Shown piece after piece: positions 3,342 through 20,037 of a stretch of DNA of 22,158 bases (its first letter is position 1; each line of letters begins with the position of its first letter). The stretch spans positions 1 to 22,158 of the IMG/VR virus record IMGVR_UViG_3300042890_000172. One strand, 5' to 3'. The DNA comes from a virus. A program made the translations under genes and the position numbers. Below the pieces are notes generated by a model that was not told the DNA's origin, searched no databases, and saw only the letters and a list, made by a program, of their open reading frames with translations.

Positions 3342-4325
3342 TTATTTACGGTTGAGCATGTTCAGATAAGCATTCATCTTAGCGTCAACAACTTTGTCTT
3401 CGCTTAGCATTTCTACTGGGCTATCTGTTACAACAGATTTAACATCTGCATTTACCTTGGTTGTGAAGTAGTTTTCACGAATTGTCTGAACTTTATTTTC
3501 GAAAGTAGATTCGTCTTCGTATGATAGTTCTTCAACAAGTCCAGTGAACTTTTCTACTTCAGTATCAGTCAAACCTTCGCTAATAGTAGCAATGATTTGT
3601 TGACGCTTCATAATAGAAACAGTCTTAGCCAATTCAATATTGGATGCGACTTGTTCATTCAACTTTGTTTCCAAAGTTTCAACTTGCTCTTCTAAAGAAC
3701 CAAGAACATCGAACTTCTCTTCAGGAACTTCAATGTAGTGTTCTTCAAATAAACTCTTCATACCAGAAACAAAACTTTCTAGAATATCAGACTTCATACC
3801 ACGTTCAAGGGCGATCTCATTCTGTTCCATCCACTGCTCAACTACGTAGTTGAGATATCCATCAACTTGTTCAACTAGACCCTCAATATTCTGCGCCGCA
3901 GCTTCTTCTAGCTTGGCTTCGAATTCTTCTTCTAAGCGTGCAACTTCAGAGTTGACACGGCTCATTACAGCAGCTTCAAAAATGGTAGCAGCTTTTGTTC
4001 TGAATTCTTCAGACAATTGCTCTTCACCATTCATAAGTGCATCAATATCTTCTTTCATTCTGCCAGCTGCTTCTGGAGCAGATGCATTAGCAGTAACTTT
4101 GTTTGGCTTCTTTGAAGTTCCACCCTCTGCTTCCTTTTCATTATCCACGTTGTTACGTGCATTATCTGGGTTTGGAGTTTCAGGTGCTGGCTTTACAGCT
4201 TCTTCTTCTATCTCGTCTTCTTCAAGTACTTCTTCAGCAACTAGATCATCAGCGTTAGCTTGTTCAGCTAATTTTGCTTTTCTAGATTCTGCTAGAAGTT
4301 CAGCGATTTTTTGTTCGATTGACAT
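3342..4325 (-). CDS. gp22: Prohead core scaffold protein gp22
   Basis: The 327-residue product is very acidic and almost wholly helical, with long Glu/Lys-rich coiled-coil stretches (about residues 105-150 and 205-240), as expected for the internal scaffold on which gp23 assembles. The N-terminal third (about 28-90) is a low-complexity acidic Pro/Asn linker rich in EE pairs. Several (L/I)xE or IFE/LFE motifs (for example TIFEAAV near residue 113 and SLFEEHY near 191) are candidate gp21 cleavage sites; in T4 the scaffold is chopped to peptides before packaging. T4 gp22 has 269 residues. The gene lies between gp21 and gp23 as in T4. A strong AAGGAG ribosome binding site precedes it, and two overlapping late-promoter boxes lie in the gap upstream. 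Confidence 0.93.
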   Translation of the reverse strand: MSIEQKIAELLAESRKAKLAEQANADDLVAEEVLEEDEIEEEAVKPAPETPNPDNARNNVDNEKEAEGGTSKKPNKVTANASAPEAAGRMKEDIDALMNGEEQLSEEFRTKAATIFEAAVMSRVNSEVARLEEEFEAKLEEAAAQNIEGLVEQVDGYLNYVVEQWMEQNEIALERGMKSDILESFVSGMKSLFEEHYIEVPEEKFDVLGSLEEQVETLETKLNEQVASNIELAKTVSIMKRQQIIATISEGLTDTEVEKFTGLVEELSYEDESTFENKVQTIRENYFTTKVNADVKSVVTDSPVEMLSEDKVVDAKMNAYLNMLNRK

Positions 4326-4358
4326 CGTTGTATCTCCTTAACTGGATTAGTTCTGTAT

Positions 4359-4373
4359 TATTTATTATTTATC
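4359..4373 (-). promoter_or_regulatory. Two overlapping late promoter boxes before gp22-gp23
   Basis: The minus strand reads GATAAATA (4373-4366) overlapping AATAAATA (4366-4359). Both fit the T4-like late consensus NATAAATA. The first contains the TAA stop codon of gp21. The nearer box ends 33 bp before the gp22 start. They would drive the most highly needed head genes, gp22 and gp23, down to the terminator at 1957-1978. Inferred from motif and position. Confidence 0.6.
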
Positions 4374-5022
4374 TGATTTTACTCAGGAAATTCTGGAAAG
4401 CACGTAACTTTGCTTCCTGTAAATTTTTAGAAGAAGTTCTACGAATTTCACGTTGTTGTTCTTCTATATCTCTTTGCACGTACTTTCCATCAACAAATGC
4501 CCACTCGCAACTTTCCATAATGCCTCTTACGAAAGCATCAGGAGCAGATGGGTCAGCAACGATATCTGCTGCGGTTGACAGCATGAAATCGTCTTGAACA
4601 ATTTGAACACCTTCTCTGTTTAACTTCAGAGAGCCCAAGGCTCTGCTTGAAACGCCGAGATTAGCTCCTCCATCAAGAAGCCCTCTTGCGATATTACCCA
4701 TAGGTGTTTCCATGATTTTTGCTTTGCCAACATAATTGGTGCCTTCTTTACGTAGGTCAACAATCATGTGGGATACTCTATCTAAATTAATAGATGGACT
4801 ATCTGGGTGTCCTAGTTCGCCATATGCTCTGTTTAATTTAACAGACTCTTTGATATAGCGAGTAACTTCGTTATCCATAACAGACTCTGGGTACATGCGT
4901 CCATTACGGTTCTTTATATCGGATTGAAGAAAGATTCCTTCAATGTAATAGTCTTTCTTTTTGCCGTCTTTTGATTCAACGACAAAGCTGACTGACTCTG
5001 TTACTTCTTTGATTAGTTTCAT
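4369..5022 (-). CDS. gp21: Prohead core protease gp21
   Basis: The 217-residue product (T4 gp21 has 212) carries the marks of the T4-type prohead protease (S78/U9-type serine protease of herpesvirus-assemblin fold): the catalytic histidine motif YGELGHP with His72, and the serine motif NLGVSSRALG with Ser125/Ser126. The segment LQSDIKNRNGRMYP (about residues 32-45) is typical of phage prohead proteases. It cleaves gp22, gp23 and other head proteins after assembly and then itself. The charged C-terminal tail (about 180-217) holds NLQEAKL, a plausible self-cleavage region. It follows the 143-aa gene by 1 bp with a TAGGAAG ribosome binding site and ends in a late-promoter box. Secure identification. 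Confidence 0.96.
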   Translation of the reverse strand: MKLIKEVTESVSFVVESKDGKKKDYYIEGIFLQSDIKNRNGRMYPESVMDNEVTRYIKESVKLNRAYGELGHPDSPSINLDRVSHMIVDLRKEGTNYVGKAKIMETPMGNIARGLLDGGANLGVSSRALGSLKLNREGVQIVQDDFMLSTAADIVADPSAPDAFVRGIMESCEWAFVDGKYVQRDIEEQQREIRRTSSKNLQEAKLRAFQNFLSKIR

Positions 5023-5023
5023 T

Positions 5024-5455
5024 TTAGCTTCCTACTACAGATTCGTTATCTTTAGATCCAAATTGTGCAGTCTCAACCTTAGGTGCGTAACCAGAAACCT
5101 TGCGTAACTTTAAATACATTTCTACGTTACCGCTGCCTGTTTGAGTTACAACAATATCATGAGTAGCGTTGACATTTTCTGGAGGCATTTCTTGTCCGTC
5201 AAACAACATAGTATCAGATGCATCTGTCGGTAGGGTTAAAATTCTAACAGCATTTCTGTCGATAGCTAGAACGTTTGTTAACTCGCCACCCCAACGAACT
5301 GCAGTAATAGTAACAGTTTGAGTTGCGCCATCAAGTGCTTGGTTTGTATCTAGCAAGTCAGTCTGCAGATCAATAGTGCTTGTGCCAGCAGCACCAGAAA
5401 CTTTTACTACAGTTTCAGTTTCTGTCATTCTTATAATTGTTTTCGTTAGTGCCAT
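5024..5455 (-). CDS. Conserved-type virion protein of unknown function (143 aa)
   Basis: I do not recognise a characterised family. The protein is small, mostly beta-predicted, rich in Thr and Val, and without signal peptide or membrane segment; for example TVTITAVRWGGEL, AVRILTLP and DIVVTQTGSGNVEMYLKLRKVSG alternate in strand-like fashion. It is packed between the gp68-position gene and gp21, with 1-bp gaps on both sides and a GAGGAA ribosome binding site, so it is a real late head-operon gene. A beta-rich protein in this position could decorate or stabilise the capsid, but that is inference from place and composition only. In T4 no gene stands between 68 and 21. Confidence 0.85.
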   Translation of the reverse strand: MALTKTIIRMTETETVVKVSGAAGTSTIDLQTDLLDTNQALDGATQTVTITAVRWGGELTNVLAIDRNAVRILTLPTDASDTMLFDGQEMPPENVNATHDIVVTQTGSGNVEMYLKLRKVSGYAPKVETAQFGSKDNESVVGS

Positions 5456-5456
5456 T

Positions 5457-6002
5457 TTATTCCTCTAGCTGTTCAAGAACATGCAGAAAATTCTCTTTTG
5501 ATTCTCTCATGTATTCTACTATTTCTTTTTGATTAGACAACAAGTTATTTAGTCTTATTTGCGTAGCTTCATTTATAGCAACTACAGAGTTGTCGCTTAA
5601 TTTATAATGTATTTTGTTCTCAATGATAGTATCTACTTTGTTAAGTTTACGTATCTCATAGACAACTGGGTCTACGTTGAATAGGTTAGAAGAAGCAAGT
5701 TCAATGTATGATTCAATTAATGTGTCAGTAACTTTGATATCGTAGTATTCTTTTATTATTTCTGCTATCTTATTTTCTGATAAGGATTCGTATATTTCGT
5801 CTGTTACTTCTTGTGCTATATTTTCTGATGTAATTTTAGATTTTATATATTTTCTTGCTTCTTCTAAATTCTTGAACTCAGTTTTAAGAGAATTGATAGC
5901 TACAGTACCATCTTCTAATTTTTCAAGTGTGTTACCATAAGACCTAATCGTCTCAGCGACATTAGGTCTAGTGATACTCTTAATAAACTGATTGTATTGC
6001 AT
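5457..6002 (-). CDS. gp68: Prohead core component, gp68 position
   Basis: This 181-residue protein is helical, charged and Glu/Lys/Asn/Ile-rich, with no enzyme motif. The order portal (gp20), gp67, this gene, then gp21 is that of T4, where gene 68 encodes a 141-residue prohead core protein. It begins MQYNQFIKSI and holds long amphipathic helices at about 40-110 and 140-180, which suits a scaffold core part. The match to T4 gp68 is by position and character, not by clear motif. The start codon overlaps the gp67 stop in a TAATG junction, so the two are probably translationally coupled. Confidence 0.68.
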   Translation of the reverse strand: MQYNQFIKSITRPNVAETIRSYGNTLEKLEDGTVAINSLKTEFKNLEEARKYIKSKITSENIAQEVTDEIYESLSENKIAEIIKEYYDIKVTDTLIESYIELASSNLFNVDPVVYEIRKLNKVDTIIENKIHYKLSDNSVVAINEATQIRLNNLLSNQKEIVEYMRESKENFLHVLEQLEE

Positions 6003-6178
6003 TACTCGTCAGAAGTATCTTCTGGTGTATCTTGCGGGCTAAACATAGTTGATGCTACCTCGATGCGCTTGTCTGCAAGGCGTGCATAAATTTTATCACC
6101 CATTGCAGCATTAAATGCTGCTTCAGTTTCCATAGCATCACCCTTTGCGATAGCTACGATTAAATCTTGTACACTCAT
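6002..6178 (-). CDS. gp67: Short prohead core protein gp67 (PIP)
   Basis: A 58-residue reading frame starts MSVQDLIVAIAKGDAM and ends in an acidic tail (FSPQDTPEDTSDE). T4 gp67 (80 residues) likewise starts with a short helix of the type LIEAIKxxD, has an AFxxAMxxK-like stretch (here FNAAMGDKIYARLADKR) and ends in an acidic tail. It is the internal core protein precursor made in quantity for the prohead scaffold. The start overlaps the gp20 stop (ATGA, 6178-6175) and the stop overlaps the next start (TAATG), so it fills the whole gap between portal and gp68 genes. It is small enough to be missed by length-filtered gene calling. Confidence 0.88.
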   Translation of the reverse strand: MSVQDLIVAIAKGDAMETEAAFNAAMGDKIYARLADKRIEVASTMFSPQDTPEDTSDE

Positions 6179-7734
6179 TGTTTAGCTCCTGTATTATCTT
6201 GTTGTGGCTCTGGAAGTTGATCCTGCATAGCAGCTTGTCTAGTTCCGTCCATAGTTCCCATGTGATCAGAGTAGTCTATTTGCATAGGCTTTTCTGCTTG
6301 GATTTCTTTATCAATTTCTTCCTGCTGTTCTTCAGGAATACGCAGAACATTTTTAGTGATCCACGCTTGAGAGTAGTACTTACCAATGTAAGGATCCATC
6401 TGTTGCAGCATCTGAATACGCTGTAAAAGAATTTCGTTATCTTTCAATTCGCTAAAGTAGTTGTCCTTCTGGAAGTCATAGCGTACATATTGACGCATTT
6501 CATCCCATTCTTCTGGACGTACAATACCTTTAGCAACTAACTGAACACGCATTGCGTCAGTGAATAGGTTTGCAAATTTCTTACGAACACGTGTAACAAA
6601 CTTATTGAACTTAAGTTCTTCACGAGTAATCTCAGTAGAACGACCTAAGTTAAAACCACTAGTCTGTTGTAAACGTCCAATAGGAACGTTCAATGCTTGA
6701 TATAGTTTTTGTTGGAAGTATTGAATGTCTTGGATCTCACCAAGATTCTGACCACCTGGTAAGGTAGTAATCTCAGTACCTTTACCACCTTCACGGCGAG
6801 GCATCCAAAAGTCTTCCATCATGGACAAGTGTTTACGATCATCTCTGGTTTCGCCAGTAGTTGCGTCATAAACGATCTTGTTACGAAACTTATTCATAAT
6901 GTCATTAACGTATTGCTCAGCTTTGAGCTTTGGTAAGTTACCTACGTCAATGTAGAAAATTCTGCGCTCTGGTGCGCGAGAGATACGATAGATAACAACT
7001 GCATCTTCGATCATCTTTAATTGGTTAACTGGCTTAATTGCTTTGTGCAGATGACTCATCATCATGCCAGTGTTTGCATCCATCAATCCCGATGGGCAAT
7101 AGATTACAGAATCAATGGACAACTTAACACCCTGTGCTGTTTGTTCTGTAATACCTTTATCATTGTAGATATAATATTCTTCAATGTCTTTAATTACATC
7201 AACACCAGCTTGAGTTCGTTCTTTCTTGATCGTTTTAATCTTGCGGATTTTACGTGGATCAATGAAACGAAGTTCTTGGATGCCAGACTTGACATTGTTT
7301 GTATCTAACAAAATGTTATAATATAATCTACCGTCAATGTACCATGATCTAAAGATCTCATGACCTTTTTCTTCAAACTTAAGTAGACGCATAATGGTCT
7401 GGAATTCATCACGAATTTTTTTCTTGATAGGATCTGATACTTTAAGATCGTCAAGGTTAATTTGTATAGGTTGATCATCGTCAGATGTTATTGACTCATT
7501 GACGATGTCTTCAATTGCTGCGTCACAATCAGCGTATTGTGCTACTTCACGATATCTGCGAATAAGATCGTTTTCGTTCTTAATGATACCTTCGATATCC
7601 ATCACCATCCCATAATAGGATGATGATGAACTCGTGAAGATAGCCGTGCCGTCATCAGAGGTAGGTGTTACTACATTACCTATCTCTGAGTCGTTCTTCT
7701 TTTTACGCTGGATCTCAAATCCAAAAATTTGCAT
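6175..7734 (-). CDS. gp20: Portal vertex protein gp20
   Basis: At 519 residues this matches T4 gp20 (524). It has portal landmarks of the T4 family: the EIGNVVTPTSDDGT start, YADCDAAIEDIVNE (about 67-80), the QELRFIDPRKIRKI segment, the IYRISRAPERRIFYIDVGNLP segment, and the NVPIGRLQQTSGFNLGRSTE segment before the long crown helices. It forms the dodecameric ring through which gp17 pumps DNA and on which the prohead starts. The C-terminus is Gln-rich. A GAAGG ribosome binding site lies 6 bp before the ATG, and gp19 ends 16 bp upstream. gp67 starts inside its last codons. Secure identification. Confidence 0.97.
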   Translation of the reverse strand: MQIFGFEIQRKKKNDSEIGNVVTPTSDDGTAIFTSSSSSYYGMVMDIEGIIKNENDLIRRYREVAQYADCDAAIEDIVNESITSDDDQPIQINLDDLKVSDPIKKKIRDEFQTIMRLLKFEEKGHEIFRSWYIDGRLYYNILLDTNNVKSGIQELRFIDPRKIRKIKTIKKERTQAGVDVIKDIEEYYIYNDKGITEQTAQGVKLSIDSVIYCPSGLMDANTGMMMSHLHKAIKPVNQLKMIEDAVVIYRISRAPERRIFYIDVGNLPKLKAEQYVNDIMNKFRNKIVYDATTGETRDDRKHLSMMEDFWMPRREGGKGTEITTLPGGQNLGEIQDIQYFQQKLYQALNVPIGRLQQTSGFNLGRSTEITREELKFNKFVTRVRKKFANLFTDAMRVQLVAKGIVRPEEWDEMRQYVRYDFQKDNYFSELKDNEILLQRIQMLQQMDPYIGKYYSQAWITKNVLRIPEEQQEEIDKEIQAEKPMQIDYSDHMGTMDGTRQAAMQDQLPEPQQDNTGAKQ

Positions 7735-7750
7735 TATAAACCTTCAATTA

Positions 7751-8338
7751 TTAAAGAATTGGAATATTACCGATTGGAGTTCCAATGTTAATACCAACTT
7801 GGTTAGAGGCACTAGCAGCAGAAGTGACCCAGTAGTTGTATGTGAATGTAACAGTGAATGTTTCAATCGCATTACCATTCTCATAGTCAAGTTCGATAGT
7901 ACCAACTTCTGTTGGATATGCATCGATAAAGCTATAAGACTTGATAACAGCGCCAGAACGATCCAACTGGTGTACGTTCATTTGTGCTTGATAGTCGTTA
8001 GGGTTAACAATACCGTTTGTACCGCTGACGTTTTGGATACCGTTAGACCATGTTTCCATAGCATTGCGGATTGCAAAATCAGTGTCGTTATAAACAGTAA
8101 TTGTCCATGGAGCGAATGTACGCTCACCAGCAAAATTTACTGGACGACCACGATATTGTACAGCGATGTTTTCAATAGTTGCAGCTGGCAATTGAGCAGC
8201 CTTACATAAAAACATAGCCTTTGTTCCAACGATAGCACCAGTATTAACGAATGCTGGGAACCCTAGTTCAACTCTGAATTGGTTGGCGCGAGCACCACCA
8301 CCAATCATCATTGATTTGAATTCAGAAATGTTTGCCAT
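7751..8338 (-). CDS. gp19: Tail tube protein gp19
   Basis: This 195-residue protein (T4 gp19 has 163) has the main tail tube features: an ANQFRVELGFP strand near residue 18, then CKAAQLPAATI, the FAGERTFAPWTITVYNDTDFAIRNAMETWSN-type region (about 69-100) and the C-terminal IELDYENGNAIETFTVTFTYNYW strands. The sequence runs about 30 residues longer than T4 gp19, partly in the Asn/Gly/Ile-rich C-terminus (QVGINIGTPIGNIPIL). Many copies stack into the inner tube inside the gp18 sheath. It lies between sheath and portal genes as in T4. Its leader holds an AATAAATA late box and an AAGGAG ribosome binding site, so it can be transcribed independently after the gp18 terminator. Confidence 0.95.
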   Translation of the reverse strand: MANISEFKSMMIGGGARANQFRVELGFPAFVNTGAIVGTKAMFLCKAAQLPAATIENIAVQYRGRPVNFAGERTFAPWTITVYNDTDFAIRNAMETWSNGIQNVSGTNGIVNPNDYQAQMNVHQLDRSGAVIKSYSFIDAYPTEVGTIELDYENGNAIETFTVTFTYNYWVTSAASASNQVGINIGTPIGNIPIL

Positions 8339-8358
8339 TTAATTTATCTCCTTGAGTA

Positions 8359-8366
8359 TATTTATT
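8359..8366 (-). promoter_or_regulatory. Late promoter box before gp19
   Basis: The minus strand reads AATAAATA (in AATAAATATACTC), 20 bp before the gp19 ATG and 10 bp past the gp18 terminator stem. The terminator-promoter pair in the same 63-bp gap separates sheath from tube transcription. Inferred from motif and position. Confidence 0.6.
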
Positions 8367-8376
8367 GCTATTAAAA

Positions 8377-8396
8377 GAGGGGGAATTAACCCCCTC
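8377..8396 (-). terminator. Intrinsic terminator after gp18
   Basis: On the minus strand a perfect 7-bp GC-rich stem (GAGGGGG with CCCCCTC) closes a 6-nt loop (TTAATT) and is followed by TTTTAATAG. It lies 5 bp past the gp18 stop codon. The U-tract is short, so some read-through into gp19 is likely. Confidence 0.83.
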
Positions 8397-8401
8397 CTGT
8401 T

Positions 8402-11400
8402 TTATAGCCCAACAGTCTCAAAACTTACGCCAGTCTTAGTAGCAATAAAGTTCAAAGTGATGTAATTGATAGAACGGTTTGGCTTGATATAGATATCAGC
8501 GATAAACTCGTTTGCATCAATTACTGCAGGTGTGTTGTTTGTAGTGTCACACTTAACACGGAAGTCCACAATACCACGACGACCTTGAACATCACGCAGG
8601 AATGGCTCAACTAGGTTCTTGAATTGTGCACGAGTAAAGTCATCGTTGAATTCAAACAACTGATACTTAGCAGCGTTGGCAACAGCTTTCTCAAGAACGA
8701 TAAACAAGCGACGAACGTTGATACGATCGAACGCAGAGGATTTCTTCTGCATTGTCTTGTCACCGTAAAGGATAGTTCCTTCACCTGGGAATGTAACGAC
8801 TGGGTTGATACCACCAACGTACAGCAAGTCACGTTGTGCTTGTGTAGGGTTAAATGCCAACTTAGTTACATTCTTGATTTGACCACGATTGAAACCGCCT
8901 GGAGAGAACCATGCATCAGATACATTATCTGTATAAGCACATAGACCAGCAACGTCACCGTTCAATGGGATCCAACGGAACACATCGTTGTAACGATCGT
9001 ACTGATATTTCCAACCAGAATCCATTACACCGTAAGAAGCAAGTGCATCACCAACGTCAATAGAGTCACGGTATTGAACCATCTCAGTAGCAATATCAGA
9101 AGCAGTTCCGATTAGCAGAGGAGCAGAAACGAATGCAACTACGTCCTTACGAAGAGCAGCTACGTTCTCGATGATCCATGCTGCAGTATTAGCAGAAACA
9201 TTACCTGTAGGCATCAATGAGATGTCGAATGCAGATGCATCGCTAAACATTTCGTATGCGTCCATGATGTTTGCTTCAGTTAAAGCATCACCATCATCAC
9301 CACCAGCTAATGTTACGTCTGGGTTATTTGCCAGCGCATCAAAGTTGTTGTTCTTAGCAACAGAACCCCAGTTTGCACGACCAAGAATGTCTGCAGTGTC
9401 TGGAGCATCTAACCACCAGATCCAACCAGAATTATTGATCAGATTCTTATAGTATGAAGAAGTTCCATTACTTGACTTAGCATCTGCTGCTTTAGAAGCA
9501 CCTTCCCATTTCTGGATAACAGTACCAGCAGCACCAGTAATTAAACCACTAGTATCAATCAACAGCATATGGACTTCATCGTTTTGTCCACCAACGTTAG
9601 CTGCAAAGGCAGACGTACCTGGAGCACGAGTAAATTCTTTACTGTATCTCCACTCACGATCGCAAACAGCGTTAAGTGCTTCTGCTTTGTTGTTTCCAAC
9701 CATGTTTAAAACTTCAGTCTTTTCAACACGGCGAATAGCACCAACGTTAGCAACAGTACGCACAGAACCGCTACCAGTCAATGCTTTTGTAGCAGTGAAT
9801 GTAGTTCCTGGGTTGTTGTTTGCAGCACCAGCTAGTGTAAAGTTTGTAGTTCCAGCAACGTTGATAGTGTAGCTATAACCTGCAACCAACTGGTTTGCAG
9901 TAACGATTCCATTAGCAATTTGTGTGATACTTAACGCATCAGTACCAGTTGTAGATAGAGTTAATGCAGCACCTGCTGTGTTAAGTTTGATATAGAAACT
10001 TTGAGTGTCAATGACAAAATCATCAACTCTAGTGTCCCAAACTTTAGCATAACCATCAAAGGTTCCGATTACAGTTGCAGCCAAACCAGTACGGTTCAAC
10101 ACAACGTTTGCATTTGCCAGTACAGGAGTAACGAATGGAGTGTTTGGAACACCCTTTAAGTATGGATTAACTTTAGCTAATGTAACTTTAATAAAAGTAC
10201 CAGCTTCTACTGAACGAACTAATCCTAACTCAATGTTAGCATAAGATTGATTACCACCAGCGGCACCAGATTCTCTTGTGTTAGAAGCAGAAGTTCTTAC
10301 AACTTTACCAACAAAGGTAGAAGAAGCTGCAGTGAACGTAGATGTTGCTGAAGAACCAGGGAATGCCGCTGTGATCACTCTACGTACTCTAGAGATTTCT
10401 GTATTAGATTCAAAACGCTCAACACGAGTTCTTGCAAAGAAACGACCATCAACAGTAGTGTCATAAGTGGCACTATCTGCCATTGCAAACAGCAATGAGT
10501 TACCCAATGAACCTGCATACTTTGCCGCTACTGGACCAAAGTTACCTTGTCCGTCAATATAGGTTTGCTCATAGTGATTCTTGTTACGAATCTTAATACC
10601 AACTGGTAAAATAACAGCTGTACCTGTTGCTTGCGTAGAACCACCGCCACCAGTAATAGTAACAGTTGGAACGCTAGTGTAACCAGAACCTTCAACAGTT
10701 ACGTTGATTGATTTTAGAACAGATGTTCCAACTGGAATTGGGTCGTGCGTGAATGTGTTAATATTAACAGTAGATCCGTCTGGATTGGTAATACCAATTA
10801 CAGTAGCTGGAGCTGTATAACCAGCACCAATGTTGGTAATTTTAATTTTTGCAATACCAGTACCAACGGTAAGTTCTGCAACTTCACCTAGAGCTGTAAT
10901 TACTTGTTGTGTAACAACACCGTTATCATCAGTAACGTCTATGGTTTGCTGTGGTGCGCTGAACAAAACCTTCATACCAACAGTGAAACCAGTACCAGCA
11001 GCAGTGATTAAGCTGACTGGTAAATAGTTTGAACCGCCAGCGGCTTCGACCAGAACGCCAGCACCTTGACGCACTGCAACTGCAATTGCTTGTTGTCCGT
11101 CAAATGTATCTGGTGCGCTTATCTGTACTGTTGGATTGCTAGTATAACCAGCACCAGCAGTTACAAGAGTGATACTCTCAACACTAGATGATGGTTTTGC
11201 AACTGCATTCTTTAGGTTAGCAGAGTCTGCACGGTTAACGTACATACTATTAGAGTATTGCAGAAAGTTTGCTGCGGTAAAGAAAGACTCGTATGTGTCA
11301 TTGTTTGGTTTACCGAATACGGTTACCAACTCAGGTTCATTAGACACCAACTGTGGATCCAGTACTGGTCCCCAGTTAAATCTTCCAGAGTATGCTCCAC

Positions 11401-11479
11401 GTGAAGTAGAAACTTTAGGAACGATCTGAGTTAGATCCTTCTCTATTACTTGCACGCCTGGACTTAATAAATTAGCCAT
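8402..11479 (-). CDS. gp18: Tail sheath protein gp18, enlarged by inserted domains
   Basis: The ends are clear gp18: the N-terminus MANLLSPGVQVIEKDLTQIV with the FNWGPVLDPQLV segment (about residues 35-46), and a C-terminal half (about 590-1025) with the core found in T4-like sheaths, for example WIIENVAALRKDVVAFVSAP, FSPGGFNRGQIKNV and NVRRLFIVLEKAVANAA followed by the VKCDTTNNTP end. T4 gp18 has 659 residues, whereas this has 1025. The extra length sits between residues about 97 and 580: three GxGYTxxPTV-type beta repeats (97-290) and a small Thr/Gly-rich module (521-578). Insertions at the outer surface are tolerated by sheath proteins, because only the inner domain contacts the tube; that placement is inference. 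An AAGGAG site precedes the ATG and a terminator follows the gene. Confidence 0.95.
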   Translation of the reverse strand: MANLLSPGVQVIEKDLTQIVPKVSTSRGAYSGRFNWGPVLDPQLVSNEPELVTVFGKPNNDTYESFFTAANFLQYSNSMYVNRADSANLKNAVAKPSSSVESITLVTAGAGYTSNPTVQISAPDTFDGQQAIAVAVRQGAGVLVEAAGGSNYLPVSLITAAGTGFTVGMKVLFSAPQQTIDVTDDNGVVTQQVITALGEVAELTVGTGIAKIKITNIGAGYTAPATVIGITNPDGSTVNINTFTHDPIPVGTSVLKSINVTVEGSGYTSVPTVTITGGGGSTQATGTAVILPVGIKIRNKNHYEQTYIDGQGNFGPVAAKYAGSLGNSLLFAMADSATYDTTVDGRFFARTRVERFESNTEISRVRRVITAAFPGSSATSTFTAASSTFVGKVVRTSASNTRESGAAGGNQSYANIELGLVRSVEAGTFIKVTLAKVNPYLKGVPNTPFVTPVLANANVVLNRTGLAATVIGTFDGYAKVWDTRVDDFVIDTQSFYIKLNTAGAALTLSTTGTDALSITQIANGIVTANQLVAGYSYTINVAGTTNFTLAGAANNNPGTTFTATKALTGSGSVRTVANVGAIRRVEKTEVLNMVGNNKAEALNAVCDREWRYSKEFTRAPGTSAFAANVGGQNDEVHMLLIDTSGLITGAAGTVIQKWEGASKAADAKSSNGTSSYYKNLINNSGWIWWLDAPDTADILGRANWGSVAKNNNFDALANNPDVTLAGGDDGDALTEANIMDAYEMFSDASAFDISLMPTGNVSANTAAWIIENVAALRKDVVAFVSAPLLIGTASDIATEMVQYRDSIDVGDALASYGVMDSGWKYQYDRYNDVFRWIPLNGDVAGLCAYTDNVSDAWFSPGGFNRGQIKNVTKLAFNPTQAQRDLLYVGGINPVVTFPGEGTILYGDKTMQKKSSAFDRINVRRLFIVLEKAVANAAKYQLFEFNDDFTRAQFKNLVEPFLRDVQGRRGIVDFRVKCDTTNNTPAVIDANEFIADIYIKPNRSINYITLNFIATKTGVSFETVGL
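9746..9919 (-). repeat. Inserted phage beta module in gp18 (residues about 521-578)
   Basis: The encoded segment contains LVAGYSYTIN, then AGTTNFTLAGAANN, then PGTTFTATKALTGSGSV. This is the pattern of a small module seen in many phage tail and adhesin proteins (xxGxxYTIxxxGTTDFTxxGAxxNxxGTxFTATxxGxGTG). It is not part of the T4 gp18 core. Recognition rests on the motif order; the boundaries are approximate. Confidence 0.65.
10610..11191 (-). repeat. Three GxGYTxxPTV-type repeats inserted in gp18 (residues about 97-290)
   Basis: The repeat cores are GAGYTSNPTVQI (109-120), GAGYTAPATVIGI (218-230) and GSGYTSVPTVTITGGGG (264-280), each preceded by a short strand such as ITLVTA or INVTVE. The same type of repeat occurs in gp14 of this phage. 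The copies are diverged and unevenly spaced, so they are protein-level repeats and not recent DNA duplications. Confidence 0.75.
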
Positions 11480-13137: not shown

Positions 13138-13883
13138 TAGAAATTATCAATCCAGCTTTCATTCGTAACTGTAGATGTGCTAGAGTTACCAGTTGCATTA
13201 TATGTTTTATAAGGCGAAGACCCATCTGGATTTTCTGACAAATTGACTCCTGCTTCTGCAATAACTTTATTATTTTCAACAGCACCATACAGATTAGTCT
13301 TCAGTGTAAAGTTCAAAGTATGTGTAACGAATCTACGAGTTTGAAAATCACCATCATAATCATCTTGAACACTAACTGAATTTAATATAACAGGAACATC
13401 TTGAATGATGTTCATTTCAGGTAACACTTTTACAGAAAGAGTGTATTCTGGAGTAAAGGTTGGAAGTATTTGCTCGATGATTTGTAAGCCATCTTCTTGA
13501 GTCTTTGTTAGAATATACAAGGATATTTCAATATTATATGGTGATGGAGAATATACAAAATTCATACTGTCTACGCCATTACCACAAACTATCTTTTGCA
13601 TTCTGTTTGTTTTGCGGGATGCGTCATATGTATAGCCAAGAATTTCAAAGGACATTCTTGGTAAAGATGCATACACATTACCAGATAGATCTGGATCTTG
13701 TTCTAAACGAATCAGCCACTTTTCTTTGGGAGCATAAGCCAGCGGCACTTGTAATCGCTGAACAGTAGTTCCTGCCACAGAGTCGCCTTCTTTTCGATCA
13801 ATATAAATCGAACTGAATAGAGATCCGAAAACTACAATAGTTTTTCGAATTATTCCGTGATAGAATACGTTATTGTTTAGCAT
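13137..13883 (-). CDS. gp15: Tail sheath stabiliser / tail terminator gp15
   Basis: The 248-residue product (T4 gp15 has 272) has the family landmarks in order: an N-terminal FYHGIIRKTIVVFGSLFSSI segment, VPLAYAPKEKWL (T4: VPITYASKEHF), LPRMSFEILGYTYDASRKTN (about 74-93), YSPSPYNIEISLYILTKTQEDGLQIIEQILPTFTPEY (matched in T4 by PSPIKMIYELSIFTRYEDDMFQIVEQILPYF) and DGDFQTRRFVTHTLNFTL. It forms the hexameric ring at the head-proximal end of the tail that joins to gp13/gp14. The C-terminal 45 residues are Ser/Asn/Thr-rich and likely flexible. The start overlaps the stop of the preceding small gene and the stop overlaps the gp17 start, both as TAATG. Confidence 0.94.
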   Translation of the reverse strand: MLNNNVFYHGIIRKTIVVFGSLFSSIYIDRKEGDSVAGTTVQRLQVPLAYAPKEKWLIRLEQDPDLSGNVYASLPRMSFEILGYTYDASRKTNRMQKIVCGNGVDSMNFVYSPSPYNIEISLYILTKTQEDGLQIIEQILPTFTPEYTLSVKVLPEMNIIQDVPVILNSVSVQDDYDGDFQTRRFVTHTLNFTLKTNLYGAVENNKVIAEAGVNLSENPDGSSPYKTYNATGNSSTSTVTNESWIDNF

Positions 13884-14269
13884 TATAGAGCAGCAATTCT
13901 AGTTTTAAAATTAGCAAAATCGGTTGAAGCAGCAACAACAGTTTTTAATGATGACAGACTTATATAACCACTTGGGTTAGTTGCATTATATGGAGTGAAT
14001 CCTAATGCAGTAGTGACATTACCTGAAGTTATACCAGTCAAATAAGTGCTAGTATCAAGTGCCCATGTATTTGCTGCTGATTTCTTTAGGAAACCAGTAG
14101 TACCAGCTAGTGCAGCGATTGCAGTTAAGTCGGCATCCGCAGCTTGTTTCGTTGCAACAGAATCATACAACTCTGTAAAGTTTGCATTAGTCTTAGTAAA
14201 CGCTGTTCTTAGTGGATCACCAGTTCCATCATTAACTGCTAAACCAATTCCTATTACTTGTTTAGGCAT
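13883..14269 (-). CDS. Small tail-fibre-like virion protein between gp14 and gp15
   Basis: The 128-residue product is built from phage fibre motifs: GLAVNDGTGDPLRTAFTKTN then ANFTELYD (residues 9-35), common at the start of T4-like structural proteins; a helical link (DADLTAIAALAGTTGFLKK); the NVTTALGFTPYNATNPSGY motif (84-102), common in phage fibre shafts; and a C-terminal KTVVAASTDFANFKTRIAAL segment. The ALGFTP motif also appears in the S74 fibre at the right edge of the window. T4 has no gene here. It may be a whisker, neck appendage or a truncated fibre; the role is not known. The start has an AAGGA site 6 bp upstream, and its end is coupled to gp15, so it is expressed in the neck operon. 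Confidence 0.83.
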   Translation of the reverse strand: MPKQVIGIGLAVNDGTGDPLRTAFTKTNANFTELYDSVATKQAADADLTAIAALAGTTGFLKKSAANTWALDTSTYLTGITSGNVTTALGFTPYNATNPSGYISLSSLKTVVAASTDFANFKTRIAAL

Positions 14270-14278
14270 TTTTTATCC

Positions 14279-15277
14279 TTATCCTGCATCTGCTGTTATT
14301 GATCGATCTGCAGTATATGCTATTGAATCTGCAGTTGTTAAGTATACTGGGGCTGGTGTGACACTCGGCATGATATAATTTGAAACATCACCAAATGGGT
14401 TTGACTCATTCAAAATATAGTTAGAGCCTTCTTGCTTGAATGAGTTATTATCACCAAACGAGTCTACGTTATCAATAATAGTACCTACAACTGCAACTGC
14501 TTTTGCATTACCTGCAATAGTAACAGTTGGTAAAGTTTCATAACCAGCACCGCCATTTGTTACAACAACAGAAACTACCTTATTTGCATTGACGCCAGTT
14601 CCAAGAACTGCCTGTGCAGTAGCACCTGTTCCACCACCTCCAGAAATTGTAACTGTTGGAGTTGTTGTATAATCACTTCCACGAGATGTTACATTTATAG
14701 AAAGAACTTCACCATATTGAGATCGTGTAGTATCTGTTGTAAAAGTCTTCAAAGTCTCAAACGCATCAATTTCTTCTACGCCAGTATCGATACGTTCTGA
14801 AGAGTATTGGAACAATTCAACTTGCAACTTATATACATACAGCTTGCCTAGCTGATAGAATGGATCTTGATGCTGAACAAACTTAATCTCAAACAATCCT
14901 TTTGAGAGTGGAAAGTATAGCAAGTCCCCTTCGCATGGACGGTTTGGTAAAATCGTTTGACCCCAACGTCCAACTAACTGTTCCCAACGACGTCTAGCCA
15001 TTGTTAGTGTTGCTGTCTGTTCAACCATTAAGCCGAACTTTTGCATAAATGCACCTTGACCCTCGAATCCATCAGAATTTTCTAAATACATTTCAATTGG
15101 ATACGCTGTCTTAAATTCACTTAAGCGATCTTCTCCAAGAATGTTATCTTTAGAAACAAGTGTTCTTGGAATGTAGTAAAAGTCTTGCCCATAAATGGCA
15201 AGTGATTCAACGATAATATCCTCTATAAGGAACTGTTCGTTTTTAGTTCCATGAGAGAAGTAGACATTTCTTGCCAT
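14279..15277 (-). CDS. gp14: Neck protein gp14 with inserted beta repeats
   Basis: The N-terminal part (1-170) fits the T4 gp14 neck protein: MARNVYFSHGTKNEQFLIED, ESLAIYGQDFYYIPRTLVSKDNILGED, ARRRWEQLVGR and FPLSKGLFEIKFV, HQDPFYQLGKLYVYKLQ. The C-terminal NVDSFGDNNSF and ESNPFGD segments also fit. T4 gp14 has 256 residues, this one 332. Most of the difference is an insert at residues about 191-266 with two GxxYxxxPTVTI repeats of the kind also found in gp18. A further Ala/Thr-rich tail follows (about 303-332). gp14 with gp13 closes the filled head and binds the gp15-capped tail. It starts just after gp13 (1-bp gap, TAGGATAAT before the ATG). Confidence 0.93.
   Translation of the reverse strand: MARNVYFSHGTKNEQFLIEDIIVESLAIYGQDFYYIPRTLVSKDNILGEDRLSEFKTAYPIEMYLENSDGFEGQGAFMQKFGLMVEQTATLTMARRRWEQLVGRWGQTILPNRPCEGDLLYFPLSKGLFEIKFVQHQDPFYQLGKLYVYKLQVELFQYSSERIDTGVEEIDAFETLKTFTTDTTRSQYGEVLSINVTSRGSDYTTTPTVTISGGGGTGATAQAVLGTGVNANKVVSVVVTNGGAGYETLPTVTIAGNAKAVAVVGTIIDNVDSFGDNNSFKQEGSNYILNESNPFGDVSNYIMPSVTPAPVYLTTADSIAYTADRSITADAG
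14480..14707 (-). repeat. Two GxxYxxxPTVTI repeats inserted in gp14
   Basis: The repeat cores are SDYTTTPTVTISGGGGTGAT (201-220) and GAGYETLPTVTIAGNA (243-258), separated by about 40 residues and each preceded by an alternating Val/Ser strand (VLSINVTS, VVSVVVTN). They lie between the conserved gp14 core and its conserved C-terminal SFGDN motif, so this is an insertion and not an end extension. They match the repeats in gp18. Confidence 0.75.
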
Positions 15278-16058: not shown

Positions 16059-18485
16059 TTATATGCCATATCGACTTCTTAATGATTGAAAGTTTCTTGT
16101 AAGATCACTTGCACTAAGTGCTTGATTGTGTACTCGTACTACAGATATTCTTCCACCCCATCGTTCACCGTCACCAGAACTATGTCCACCAATTCTCATA
16201 AAATCCCAATCTGTTGGATCTTCAAATGTGCCACCAATAAATTGTTGATCTCCGTTAACTTGATATAATATTCCTGATCCATATGTATGAGATGCTGCAA
16301 CATAAACCCACTGATTGCGTGGAACAGTTAATGTCGATTGTGTCGATGGCCACCATTGAAGATAATTAGATGGATTAACATATAATGCATCATCTCCAGC
16401 CACATTATTTTGTACTATCGATCTATAGTTAGTATCAGAACTTGAGTCAAAGACCCATGCTTCAATAGTACAATTAGTGATTGTTGTTGCATTAAAAGGT
16501 ATAACATCAATATAATCATCTACATTATCAAAAGAAAAAGATCCACTATCACTTGAATTATATACTGCCCCAAACGGTATACCAGTTATATCATTGCTAG
16601 CAGTGTCGCCCCAATTTAAAAACCCTGTTGGTGTGAAAGTTCCAGAGCTAGTAAACGTATGAATTGTATATCCACCAGAAGATGTTATAGTTCCACCAGT
16701 TGCTCTTTGTGAACCGTAGTATCTAACTATAACGATACCAGATCCTCCATTTCCTCCATCACTATCCCAATGCGATCCGCCACCACCTCCACCGCCAGTG
16801 TTTGCGCCAGCATTACCACCAGTCCCGTTATTTTGACCAACTCCATTGGCACCAGCATTGAGTGCACTTCCTCCACCAGATCCAGGCGTGTAACCGCCAT
16901 ATGCAGAACCACCACCGCCACCACCCAAGCCTCCATCACCACCTCTAATAGTGTGACCACCACCGCCACCGCCTCCACCCCAGTAAAGAGATGTACCGTT
17001 TATATCAGATAAGAAACCTTGACCACCCTTACCACCATAGCTATCGCTACCGCCTCCACCTCGTTGACCAGCACCGCCACCGCCTCCAGCTGAATATTGA
17101 CCAAACCAACTTTGACCACCACCTTTATAACCTTGACCAGCTATACCAGATCCACCACCGCCTCGTCTTCCATATCCATGTTGTGTAGCATCTCCACCAC
17201 CAGATCCACCTGATTGACCTTGACCACCTAATACTGTAAAATAATGTCCACTACCACCGCCTCCACCACCAACTGCTCTAAGATTGCCAAAAATACTATC
17301 AGCACCAGATGATCCAGCTGCCTGACCACCACCATATGGTCCAAGTGATCCAGCACCTCCAGCACCAACTGTAACTACAATAGGCACATTGATTGGAGCA
17401 GAATAATTCTTCTTATAGATTACTCCTCCTGCACCACCGCCACCACCCATGTCCATACCACCCCCAGCGCCACCAGCGACTACTAAAACCTCAACCGAAC
17501 TAGACTTTGGGTTACCAGCGTCTATTGAAAGAATTAGAGAACTTAACGGTGTTACACCAGTATTGTTAAATGTAGACAACCCTTGTGTTTTTAAGTAACG
17601 AATAACAACAAGCCCTGAACCACCATTACCACCACGATTATTTCTCATGTAGTGAGAACCACCGCCTCCACCACCACCAGTGTTAGCACCACCATGACCA
17701 CCTTCGCATTGAGCCCATGTACCTGGTAGCCCACCGCCACCTGGTTCACCAGAGTTAAGAGCAGATCCACCGCCTGGTTGATACCCTATTGCACCACCAC
17801 CTCCACCACCGATTCCGCCATCTCCACCTCGATCTGAATAACCAGATCCACCACCGCCTCCACCCCAATAGTAGTTCACGCCCAGTATACTATTTAATAC
17901 ACCAGCACCACCGTTTGGTTCATTAGGTCCATCACCACCAGCTCCTCCAGCACCACCGCCACCACCAGAGTAATATGATCCACCTCCGCTATTTCCACCA
18001 CGGTTACCCTGTCCTGAAATACCAGTTCCACCAGAAACTGTGGCGCCTGCAGTATATCCTGTTGCACCTCCTCCACTACCACCATTACCACCAACGCCAG
18101 TTAGAGTATAACCATAATAACTACTACCTCCAAAACCACCACCTGTGGCAGTTATGGATCCAAATACAGAATTTCCACCTTGAGTAGCATTCACACCAAA
18201 TTGATGTGCGTCAGCTTGCCCCTGAGTACCACCTTCAGGTGCACCATTTCCTCCTGCGCCTACCAATACTGTATATGATGCTCCTGCAGTAACAGCTAGT
18301 ACTCCAGATAAAACACCACCGCCTCCTCCTCCTCCACCCATATCCATACCACCACCACCGCCTCCAGCGACTACAAGATAATCAACGTTACCATTAAAGT
18401 TAGGAACGAATGTGCCAGAAGTAGTGCAAACATGATAGTTATAGAGAGCACTATTAACACTGCTTGGTCCTGATGAAACACCCAT
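16059..18485 (-). CDS. Glycine-rich adhesin with two Gly-rich domains and a split LamG domain
   Basis: The 808-residue product is probably a virion-surface adhesin. Two related glycine-rich domains stand at about 35-298 and 331-592. Each opens LVVAGG then a GGMDMGGGG stretch, each has a YWGGGGGG block and each closes with GGNGGSG(L/I)V(V/I)(I/V)RY. Such domains resemble the polyglycine sandwich receptor-binding tips of T4-like adhesins, though I cannot show homology. The C-terminus (about 621-808) is a LamG/concanavalin-type domain (SFSFDNVDDYIDV, IEAWVFD, WVYVAASHT, RWGGRISVVRVHNQALS) ending NFQSLRSRYGI, as in the two LamG proteins encoded upstream. The usual LamG start motif, LILSIDAGNPKS, lies at 317-328, before the second Gly-rich domain. 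The start has a GGAGAA site. It may bind host surface sugars. Confidence 0.87.
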   Translation of the reverse strand: MGVSSGPSSVNSALYNYHVCTTSGTFVPNFNGNVDYLVVAGGGGGGMDMGGGGGGGGVLSGVLAVTAGASYTVLVGAGGNGAPEGGTQGQADAHQFGVNATQGGNSVFGSITATGGGFGGSSYYGYTLTGVGGNGGSGGGATGYTAGATVSGGTGISGQGNRGGNSGGGSYYSGGGGGAGGAGGDGPNEPNGGAGVLNSILGVNYYWGGGGGGSGYSDRGGDGGIGGGGGGAIGYQPGGGSALNSGEPGGGGLPGTWAQCEGGHGGANTGGGGGGGSHYMRNNRGGNGGSGLVVIRYLKTQGLSTFNNTGVTPLSSLILSIDAGNPKSSSVEVLVVAGGAGGGMDMGGGGGAGGVIYKKNYSAPINVPIVVTVGAGGAGSLGPYGGGQAAGSSGADSIFGNLRAVGGGGGGSGHYFTVLGGQGQSGGSGGGDATQHGYGRRGGGGSGIAGQGYKGGGQSWFGQYSAGGGGGAGQRGGGGSDSYGGKGGQGFLSDINGTSLYWGGGGGGGGHTIRGGDGGLGGGGGGSAYGGYTPGSGGGSALNAGANGVGQNNGTGGNAGANTGGGGGGGSHWDSDGGNGGSGIVIVRYYGSQRATGGTITSSGGYTIHTFTSSGTFTPTGFLNWGDTASNDITGIPFGAVYNSSDSGSFSFDNVDDYIDVIPFNATTITNCTIEAWVFDSSSDTNYRSIVQNNVAGDDALYVNPSNYLQWWPSTQSTLTVPRNQWVYVAASHTYGSGILYQVNGDQQFIGGTFEDPTDWDFMRIGGHSSGDGERWGGRISVVRVHNQALSASDLTRNFQSLRSRYGI
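16710..17495 (-). repeat. Glycine-rich domain, second copy
   Basis: Residues about 331-592 of the adhesin. It shares block order with the first copy (MDMGGGG, SxFG, SGIAGQGxKGG, YWGGGGGG, RGGDGG(I/L)GGGGGG, GSALN, GANTGGGGGGGSH, GGNGGSG). It is inserted between the first strand and the body of the LamG domain. The plus strand shows dense CCACCN triplet runs. Confidence 0.85.
17592..18383 (-). repeat. Glycine-rich domain, first copy
   Basis: Residues about 35-298 of the adhesin. It is preceded by the header TSGTFVPNFNGN and has the same block order as the second copy. The copies differ in the spacer residues, so the duplication is not recent. Confidence 0.85.
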
Positions 18486-18487
18486 TG

Positions 18488-18874
18488 TTATTCTCCAGAA
18501 GGAAGAACTGATGAAGATTGAATCACAGATATCGAGTCCTCACCAGAAGGAAGCACTGATGCAGATTCAATCCAAGATAGAGATTCCTCGTTCCAAATGT
18601 AATTTTTATCACCATCTGGTTTTTGTGTAGGTGCATCCCATTTACCATTGACTTCATCTAAGATCCATGACTCAAAAGTTTTTGGTGGTACAAACATATC
18701 AAGATCTGGAAAATACACATATCCAATACCAGCGTAATTTTCACGAATGGTTGAGTTATAAGAAGTTTGCACCCACGTTGTTGGGTCTCCAGCTGCACCA
18801 GATTCGATAAAATCTTGTTCTGCTACAATCACATTTGTGACTATGTTATTTTCTATTTTTGCGTAATGTGCCAT
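18488..18874 (-). CDS. Small conserved phage protein of unknown function (128 aa)
   Basis: The product begins MAHYAKIENNIVTNVIVAEQDFIESGAAG and goes on with YNSTIRENYAGIGYVYF, FVPPKTFESWILDE and KWDAPTQKPD. This order is that of a small protein common in marine T4-like phages near fibre and structural genes; its function is not known to me. The C-terminus carries a 16-residue repeat (IESASVLPSGEDSISV followed by IQSSSVLPSGE) that looks like a recent addition. It sits between two adhesin genes with 1-2 bp gaps, so a fibre-associated or assembly-helper role is plausible but unproven. A GGAA lies 8 bp before the ATG. Confidence 0.85.
   Translation of the reverse strand: MAHYAKIENNIVTNVIVAEQDFIESGAAGDPTTWVQTSYNSTIRENYAGIGYVYFPDLDMFVPPKTFESWILDEVNGKWDAPTQKPDGDKNYIWNEESLSWIESASVLPSGEDSISVIQSSSVLPSGE
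18491..18571 (-). repeat. 48-bp tandem repeat at the end of the 128-aa gene
   Basis: The plus strand shows CCAGAAGGAAG(A/C)ACTGATG at 18495 and again at 18543, an offset of 48 bp (16 codons). The copies differ at few bases in the matching part. The second protein copy is cut short by the stop codon after PSGE. Confidence 0.85.
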
Positions 18875-18875
18875 A

Positions 18876-20015
18876 TTATATTCCGTACCTTCCTCTTAAT
18901 GCTTGAAAGTTTTGCTGGACTTCTGCTGCTGATAGAGATCTAGTATATCTCGACACTGTTGCAATAGAACCAGGAAAATATCCTGCCCATGATCTACCAA
19001 TAACATCAACAGGATTATTATTGCCAGAAGTTGAGTTTGCAACATTGACGTCCAGTATACCATCAACATACATGTCCATGGTGTTGTTACTGTAATTCAC
19101 CCAAGTTAACATGTGCCAATTGTTATCATTTACTGTTCTTACTCCAAGTTTTTGGACCCATCCACCTTGATAAGTCCAATAAACAATTTTTCCACTATTA
19201 ACACCTAACATCGAGTAAACTGGACCACCACTAATATTTGAAAGTATTGAACCACCACCTAAATCATTTGTGGTAGTTGTAGTTTTCATCCAACAACTAA
19301 CTGTCCATTCAACGTTTCCATTCCCTAATGTAGTGTTTGGTATAGAGAGATAATTAGAACTACCATTAAAACTAAACGTACCATCAATTGCGTATGTTAA
19401 ACTGGTTGCTGTGATTGTGTTGTTGTTCGTGAGGTCTCTGATTGCTTGGGTGTTACTTCTAGATCCATTGACGAATGGAGTTACATAACTACTTGCTTCA
19501 ATTTGTGGCATTGTAACTTCCCAACTAGAATTATCAGCATTATTTGTACCACCCCAACATATTAAATAAAATGTCATTGACGTTGTAGTGCAATTTAGAG
19601 TAATACTAATGCGCTGCCATTGTCCAGGTAGTGTTCTATTAGTAGCACTTGCACTATCTCCTCCACCCCATCCTGAGATATAAACAGCACCACCAGTTAC
19701 ATTACTAGAACCACCAATCCATTTAATCCATGCAGAGAATGTATAAGTGCCAGTAGATGGAACCGTAACTGATTTGTACACTCCGTTCCAAGATCCCACA
19801 TTATCCATACGATAACCAGTAGTACCAAACTGAGTTACGAATTGTGCTGGTGTTCCATTAGCAGTATTAGAATAGTTATTCCAACCAGCCATCGTGTCTG
19901 CGTTTGCGACGTAATTCGTGGTAGGTTGACCTTTCCAAGACTTCTGTGTATTGGACATGTCTGTGTATAGCACTAGACCATTAGTGACTACTGAGGGTGA
20001 ATGAATTAAACTCAT
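18876..20015 (-). CDS. LamG/concanavalin-type phage adhesin (379 aa)
   Basis: Two beta-sandwich parts can be seen. The N-terminal one (about 30-190) has carbohydrate-binding-module character (TGTYTFSAWIKWIGGSS, WQRISITLN, WEVTMPQIEASSYVTPFV). The C-terminal one is a LamG domain (about 200-379) with GTFSFNGSSNYLSI, WTVSCWMKT, WHMLTWVNY, MDMYVDGIL and the IATVSRYTRSLSAAEVQQNF end. It opens SPSVVTNGLVLYTDMSN and closes NFQALRGRYGI, as do its neighbours. I place the start at ATG 20015, because AAGGA is 9 bp upstream of it; the TTG six bases earlier would sit too close to that site. A sugar-binding, receptor-contact role is likely from fold type; no target can be named. Confidence 0.87.
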   Translation of the reverse strand: MSLIHSPSVVTNGLVLYTDMSNTQKSWKGQPTTNYVANADTMAGWNNYSNTANGTPAQFVTQFGTTGYRMDNVGSWNGVYKSVTVPSTGTYTFSAWIKWIGGSSNVTGGAVYISGWGGGDSASATNRTLPGQWQRISITLNCTTTSMTFYLICWGGTNNADNSSWEVTMPQIEASSYVTPFVNGSRSNTQAIRDLTNNNTITATSLTYAIDGTFSFNGSSNYLSIPNTTLGNGNVEWTVSCWMKTTTTTNDLGGGSILSNISGGPVYSMLGVNSGKIVYWTYQGGWVQKLGVRTVNDNNWHMLTWVNYSNNTMDMYVDGILDVNVANSTSGNNNPVDVIGRSWAGYFPGSIATVSRYTRSLSAAEVQQNFQALRGRYGI

Positions 20016-20037
20016 TACCAAAGTTCCTTAGGACCTG

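Follow-up and report, generated by a model that had tools for sequence, protein, structure and literature searches.

A LamG domain divided by a glycine-rich domain in a putative adhesin of an environmental T4-like phage

The locus and its gene product

The window, that is, the whole stretch of 22,158 nucleotides analysed here (IMG/VR record IMGVR_UViG_3300042890_000172), derives from an environmental T4-like phage. The list of open reading frames places on its minus strand a LamG protein gene (16059-18485) encoding 808 amino acids, whereas the plus-strand frame at the same positions is full of stops. The gene lies within a run of fibre and LamG genes that includes a gp9/10-like gene and adjoins the neck genes. 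Upstream, the run contains the gene of a tail-fibre protein of 1852 residues that bears an S74 chaperone, as well as two LamG genes; neck and head-completion, terminase and tail genes are found downstream. The equivalent place in T4 is held by gp10-12 and fibritin.

Several other genes of the window present features of their own. A 128-residue gene (13883-14269, minus strand) carries the T4_gp9_10 N-terminal domain and is much shorter than its PHROG relatives. Another 128-residue protein (18488-18874, minus strand; phrog_7759) has the phrase ASVLPSGE repeated at its end. Repeats of the GxGYTxxPTVxI type occur both in a large ORF (8402-11479, minus strand) and in the C-terminal half of a Hc2-like head-closure protein (14279-15277, minus strand), which PHROGs place near the repeats of many virion proteins.

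With regard to copies of the gene, identical ones are present in three other IMG/VR records, namely L002 (a 168-kb contig), L003 (a 7-kb contig) and L004 (cut by the contig end), and diverged ones of about 60% identity occur in L006/L090/L091 and in L007/L095-L097. The recurrence of the split gene in these records rules out an artefact of assembly. The psbA gene, which would hint at a cyanobacterial host, is absent from the 168-kb contig. With the full-length protein as query, tblastn against the phage record collection gave no match, probably because low-complexity masking hides the glycine-rich part; the LamG part alone as query retrieved weak cyanophage matches. The same masking probably explains why no relatives could be confirmed when the MDMGGGG region was used for a profile scan. 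Sequence searches of the PDB returned nothing useful, and a search of a literature collection for LamG plus glycine-rich domains in phages found no papers.

Table 1. Features of the LamG protein gene and of its two LamG neighbours in the window
Feature	Position	Strand	Basis
Whole gene: LamG protein split by two glycine-rich units	16059..18485	-	ORF list, Pfam; identical in L002, L003 and partly L004
LamG leader peptide (putative), residues 1-12, MGVSSGPSSVNS (MGVSSGPNLVRD in relatives including L007)	18450..18485	-	Leader PSSM
Glycine-rich unit U1, header-first, residues 15-297	17595..18443	-	PF21722; body HMM; clade with L244/L245 units (starred branch, support 98)
LamG first strand, residues 315-328, SSLILSIDAGNPKS	17502..17543	-	HMM; strand E317-322 predicted with low confidence
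Glycine-rich unit U2, header-last, in the LamG loop, residues 329-619	16629..17501	-	PF21722; phrog_2295 at 328-630; AF2; Foldseek
C-terminal 'header' hairpin of U2, GGTITSSGGYTIHTFTSSGTFTP, residues 597-619	16629..16697	-	Same motif ends many standalone proteins; strands lie inside the U2 model
Remainder of the LamG domain, residues 620-808	16062..16628	-	Laminin_G_3 E 1.8e-12; HMM 46-222; Foldseek to lectin-like jelly rolls
Neighbouring LamG gene with a non-glycine insert in the same loop	18876..20021	-	Split HMM match; sister to uninserted LamG (starred branch, support 100)
Neighbouring LamG gene with an empty loop	20038..20754	-	Contiguous HMM match 1-222

A LamG domain in two collinear pieces

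In the 808-residue protein, Pfam recognises Gly_rich_2 (PF21722) in three stretches, at 74.2 bits against a cut-off of 24.3, the best being U1 at residues 21-297. Laminin_G_3 (PF13385), at 48.1 bits against a curated cut-off of 27.6, is detected only from residue 655. For a LamG HMM, 16 uninserted LamG proteins were taken from the window and from related contigs. The resulting profile matches the protein in two collinear pieces, HMM positions 13-26 at residues 315-328 and positions 46-222 at residues 636-808. The C-terminal part alone scores 94.9 bits, and joining residues 300-330 in front of it raises the score to 110.6 bits, a value reached by none of 1000 shuffles of the joined segment (maximum 97.1). 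When the 588 possible 31-residue windows were each joined in this manner, the score rose to a comparable extent only for those covering residues 315-328, and the 542 others gave at most 96.6 bits. At the level of sequence, it is therefore confirmed that the complete glycine-rich domain U2 (329-619) splits the first LamG strand (315-328) from the remainder of the domain (from about 620 to 808).

The split collinear match and the shuffles bear out an earlier note on this DNA, which had placed a glycine-rich domain inside the LamG domain, after its first strand. Its residue numbers are also correct, with the strand at 317-328 (LILSIDAGNPKS), a second glycine-rich unit at 329-619 and LamG sequence again from about residue 620. 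Strand 315-328 would be expected to pair with the LamG sheet. In a full-length AF2 model (pLDDT 54) the LamG part is confident and the glycine-rich part poor, and residues 317-322 form a strand at low confidence. The LamG part is predicted to adopt a concanavalin A-like jelly roll, matching in Foldseek the lectin-like jelly rolls of sialidases and others with a probability of 1.00.

In the diverged copies, the first strand of L006 and L007 is too diverged for significance against the general LamG HMM and stands out only against the profile of its own clade. With this clade-specific HMM, scores as high were obtained by 0 of 1000 shuffles for L006, 2 for the window, 6 for L007 and 34 for L095. 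A second split appears to lie further upstream. A leader PSSM gave 15.2 bits for the start of the window protein, a level reached by 4 of 2766 other ORF starts, and 20.1 bits for L007/L095 (reached by 2/2766); the L006 leader was not significant, and for the window protein the joined HMM score was no higher when the leader was included. Given these leader-like residues, U1 probably separates the LamG leader (1-12) from the first strand, in the same way as U2 separates the strand from the rest.

No fewer than five other phage genes, distinct from one another, also have a glycine-rich unit nested in a LamG domain. Besides the window type, the carriers comprise the L006 type, the L007 and L095 types, two different genes of L244, L245 and L327. 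The cleanest case is the L327 gene at 6462-7934, which encodes 491 residues and in which HMM positions 2-24 match residues 5-27 (E 1.6e-8), a glycine-rich unit follows, and positions 34-222 match residues 311-491 (E 4e-41). Single nesting is seen in L327, L245 2010, L244 9929 and L244 6252; in L244 9929 and L245 2010 the leader, the strand and the glycine-rich unit are in direct succession. The units nested in L244 6252 and L327 belong to different glycine-rich subfamilies. Relatives with and without the insert, for which the earlier note had proposed a search, were both found; the strand comes first in them, and LamG sequence does not always begin after the glycine-rich part.

The LamG domains (PF13385) of T4-like phages share with the window protein a leader, a first strand, a W-D-N region and a C-terminal end of the form NF-(x)-LR-R-(Y/F)-G-I. 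They differ in that most are uninterrupted, whereas the domain considered here is broken after the first strand.

Header position and fold of the glycine-rich units

The two units carry their header at opposite ends. A position-neutral motif scan located 86 headers, 51 of which precede the LVVAGG strand, while 21 lie at the protein C-terminus, 4 between two units and 10 elsewhere. An RY strand was recognised just before 17 of the 21 C-terminal headers, and many header-last domains end the protein with the same GGYTIHTFTSSGTFTA motif. Among 289 pooled bodies, a set enriched for header-last domains by the query used, the single-unit proteins had the header at the end in 116 cases, at the start in 87 and at both ends in one, with none recognised by the pattern in 18. 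Judging by these counts, a glycine-rich domain almost invariably has a single header, placed at either its start or its end. On this motif evidence, the header-last form is one of two established topologies of the family, the header-first form being the commoner.

The position of the header seems to have changed repeatedly. In a quick tree of 62 glycine-rich rows, the header-first U1 units of three lineages group with the header-last L244/L245 units (starred branch, support 98), and thus header position changed within one subfamily; the U2 units form a clade of their own (starred branch, support 99). In a wider FastTree the starred branches force at least five header switches, most inner branches of these trees being weak. 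U1 and U2 share stretches of 50-78 bp at 77-86% DNA identity. To judge from the two well-supported clades common to three phage lineages, they are old paralogues.

Modelled alone, U2 (329-619; 55 header-last relatives) is predicted by AF2 with a pLDDT of 93.5 and a pTM of 0.92, as one compact, complete domain whose three header strands are integral to the fold. Its PDB matches in Foldseek are weak and include, among those listed, the Bxb1 tail tip (E 4.5e-3), the Pam3 fibre (0.05) and the TG domains of LTK and ALK; most of the listed matches (Pam3, LTK, ALK) are of the TNF-like plus polyglycine type, with E values of 0.05 or worse. Many glycine-rich phage proteins, some annotated as concanavalin A-like, are matched among predicted viral structures, with E values down to 4e-27. 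The likeness to polyglycine-type adhesin tips that the earlier note had suggested is in keeping with these PDB matches, weak as they are.

In cyanophage Pam3 gp24 (PDB 7ypx; PMC9608196), the second-best PDB match of the U2 model, glycine-rich loops emerge from a beta-sandwich base, an arrangement that U2 may share. However, the match is weak (E 0.05), and the Pam3 domain forms the end of a fibre whose shaft is alpha-helical, whereas U2 is nested inside LamG. The glycine-rich tip of gp24 is the part that recognises the receptor, as its authors propose (PMC9608196). Salmonella phage S16 gp38 and T4-like gp38 also use a polyglycine tip for host recognition (PMC9608196), but these adhesins have a three-layer lattice on a different base, and no gp38 appears among the listed U2 matches. 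For the PF21722 family, the profile cut-off is passed here and many predicted phage structures match U2; the family name does not distinguish the two header topologies, and the nested LamG position is the difference in the present case.

The earlier interpretation of the header order needs to be revised. The statement that the header normally precedes the LVVAGG strand holds for the majority of headers, although the share at the C-terminus shows that it is not a strict rule. U2 had been taken for an abnormal, circularly permuted unit, yet the header-last form is widespread in standalone proteins and U2 alone folds compactly in the prediction. For the same reasons, a circular permutation private to this gene was ruled out: many standalone relatives are header-last. 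What survives of the permutation idea is that header position switches within the family and even within a lineage, as U1 and its L244/L245 sisters illustrate; a scrambling of U2 upon insertion is not needed.

The occupied loop and the role of the protein

The loop after the first strand also varies in sister genes, where it is empty or filled with a non-glycine domain or another LamG, and the first two states are found in adjacent genes of the window. The non-glycine inserts, of about 160-230 residues, are located at the same point in the neighbouring window gene (18876-20021) and in genes of L248-L255; Pfam gives no confident name to the insert. In two L244 genes (4164-6233 and 7877-9925), a whole LamG domain is placed inside LamG at this point (HMM 1-29, 11-211 and 33-220). 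Both of these genes continue, after the nested LamG, with further tandem LamG. An empty gene (L098) and a filled one (L099) share a stretch of 548 bp at 89% DNA identity, which begins precisely at the insertion point. In a tree of the LamG remainders, a clade on a starred branch (support 99) intermixes four glycine-occupied genes with six that have another occupant. The starred branches require the 'other insert' label to have changed at least seven times; the tree is quick and has some long branches, and thus the exact count is soft.

Filled loops are uncommon on the sites sampled, about 96-100 of 104 canonical first-strand sites being uninterrupted: a script classed 100 of them as such, about four of these appearing filled when inspected, one as glycine-rich, one as other and two as truncated. 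Sampling relied on a DNA pattern for the canonical first strand, a LamG leader/strand alignment being too variable to scan with, and because this pattern favours canonical strands, diverged occupied genes are undercounted. One contig (L005) has about ten LamG ORFs in tandem, most with an empty loop, a possible recombination pool.

Related phages either lack an occupant in the loop or carry other domains there, so that the loop resembles a socket that can be reused to alter what the phage binds. Whether it is a dedicated site for exchanging whole binding domains, which glycine-rich units enter only in the header-last one of the two permuted folds, is in our judgement an evenly balanced question. 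All seven nested glycine-rich units seen are header-last, which is suggestive only, as they represent about four independent origins.

The preferred explanation, considered probable, is that the protein is a receptor-binding adhesin of the phage surface, with a LamG (concanavalin A-like) lectin sandwich as its scaffold and, following the first strand of this sandwich, a loop that serves as an insertion socket. Here the socket would hold a complete header-last glycine-rich domain, which would combine a TNF-like base with a polyglycine lattice like that of the Pam3 fibre, and a second, header-first unit would separate the first strand from the LamG leader. Anchoring, and perhaps glycan binding, would be the task of the LamG domain, and the glycine-rich tip would present variable loops to the receptor. 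Recombination would swap the occupant (none, a non-glycine domain, a glycine-rich domain or another LamG), changing binding without the rest of the protein being rebuilt. The gene comparisons document the nesting, its recurrence and the swapping of occupants, and structure prediction points to an autonomous fold of U2. The protein would be located on the virion and bind a receptor; a binding role fits the genomic context and the likeness to Pam3 gp24.

The arrangement could instead be a plain string of domains, in which U1 is followed by a linker resembling a LamG strand by chance, then by U2 and by a LamG domain that is complete without the strand. The strand match taken in isolation is indeed worth 3.6 bits, the full-length model gives the strand low confidence, and Laminin_G_3 begins late. 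This is improbable, however, since neither the shuffles nor the 542 other windows reach the joined score, unrelated inserts use the same split point, and the L327, L244 and L245 proteins begin with an unmistakable LamG leader and first strand, directly followed by the glycine-rich unit. Very improbable is the earlier proposal of a single accident, whereby tandem glycine-rich units recombined into a permuted, aberrant unit that landed by chance in a LamG gene. The stretches shared by U1 and U2 and the header switches within a lineage would agree with it, but U2 is a header-last domain of a widespread standalone form, predicted to be complete; its paralogy with U1 is old, and the nesting recurs with other glycine-rich subfamilies and other insert types, every nested glycine-rich unit being header-last.

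A further alternative accepts the nesting and concerns the function of the protein, which might decorate the capsid or neck and hold virions close to glycans instead of acting as an adhesin for a host receptor. LamG PHROGs are labelled as virion structural, head and packaging (phrog_8510), and the gene adjoins head-completion genes. This alternative deserves some weight but seems rather unlikely, as the gene belongs to one run with the S74-chaperone tail-fibre gene and the gp9/10-like gene, and its glycine-rich domain resembles fibre tips.

The usual description of phage adhesins is one of domain strings that are exchanged end to end. A fixed socket inside a lectin domain that accepts different binding domains, and that occurs both empty and filled in neighbouring genes of one genome, would let host recognition diversify in a compact manner, and it would be directly testable in laboratory phages. 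In addition, the glycine-rich domain with its two permuted topologies would offer a simple case of a fold that tolerates the movement of an edge hairpin between its ends.
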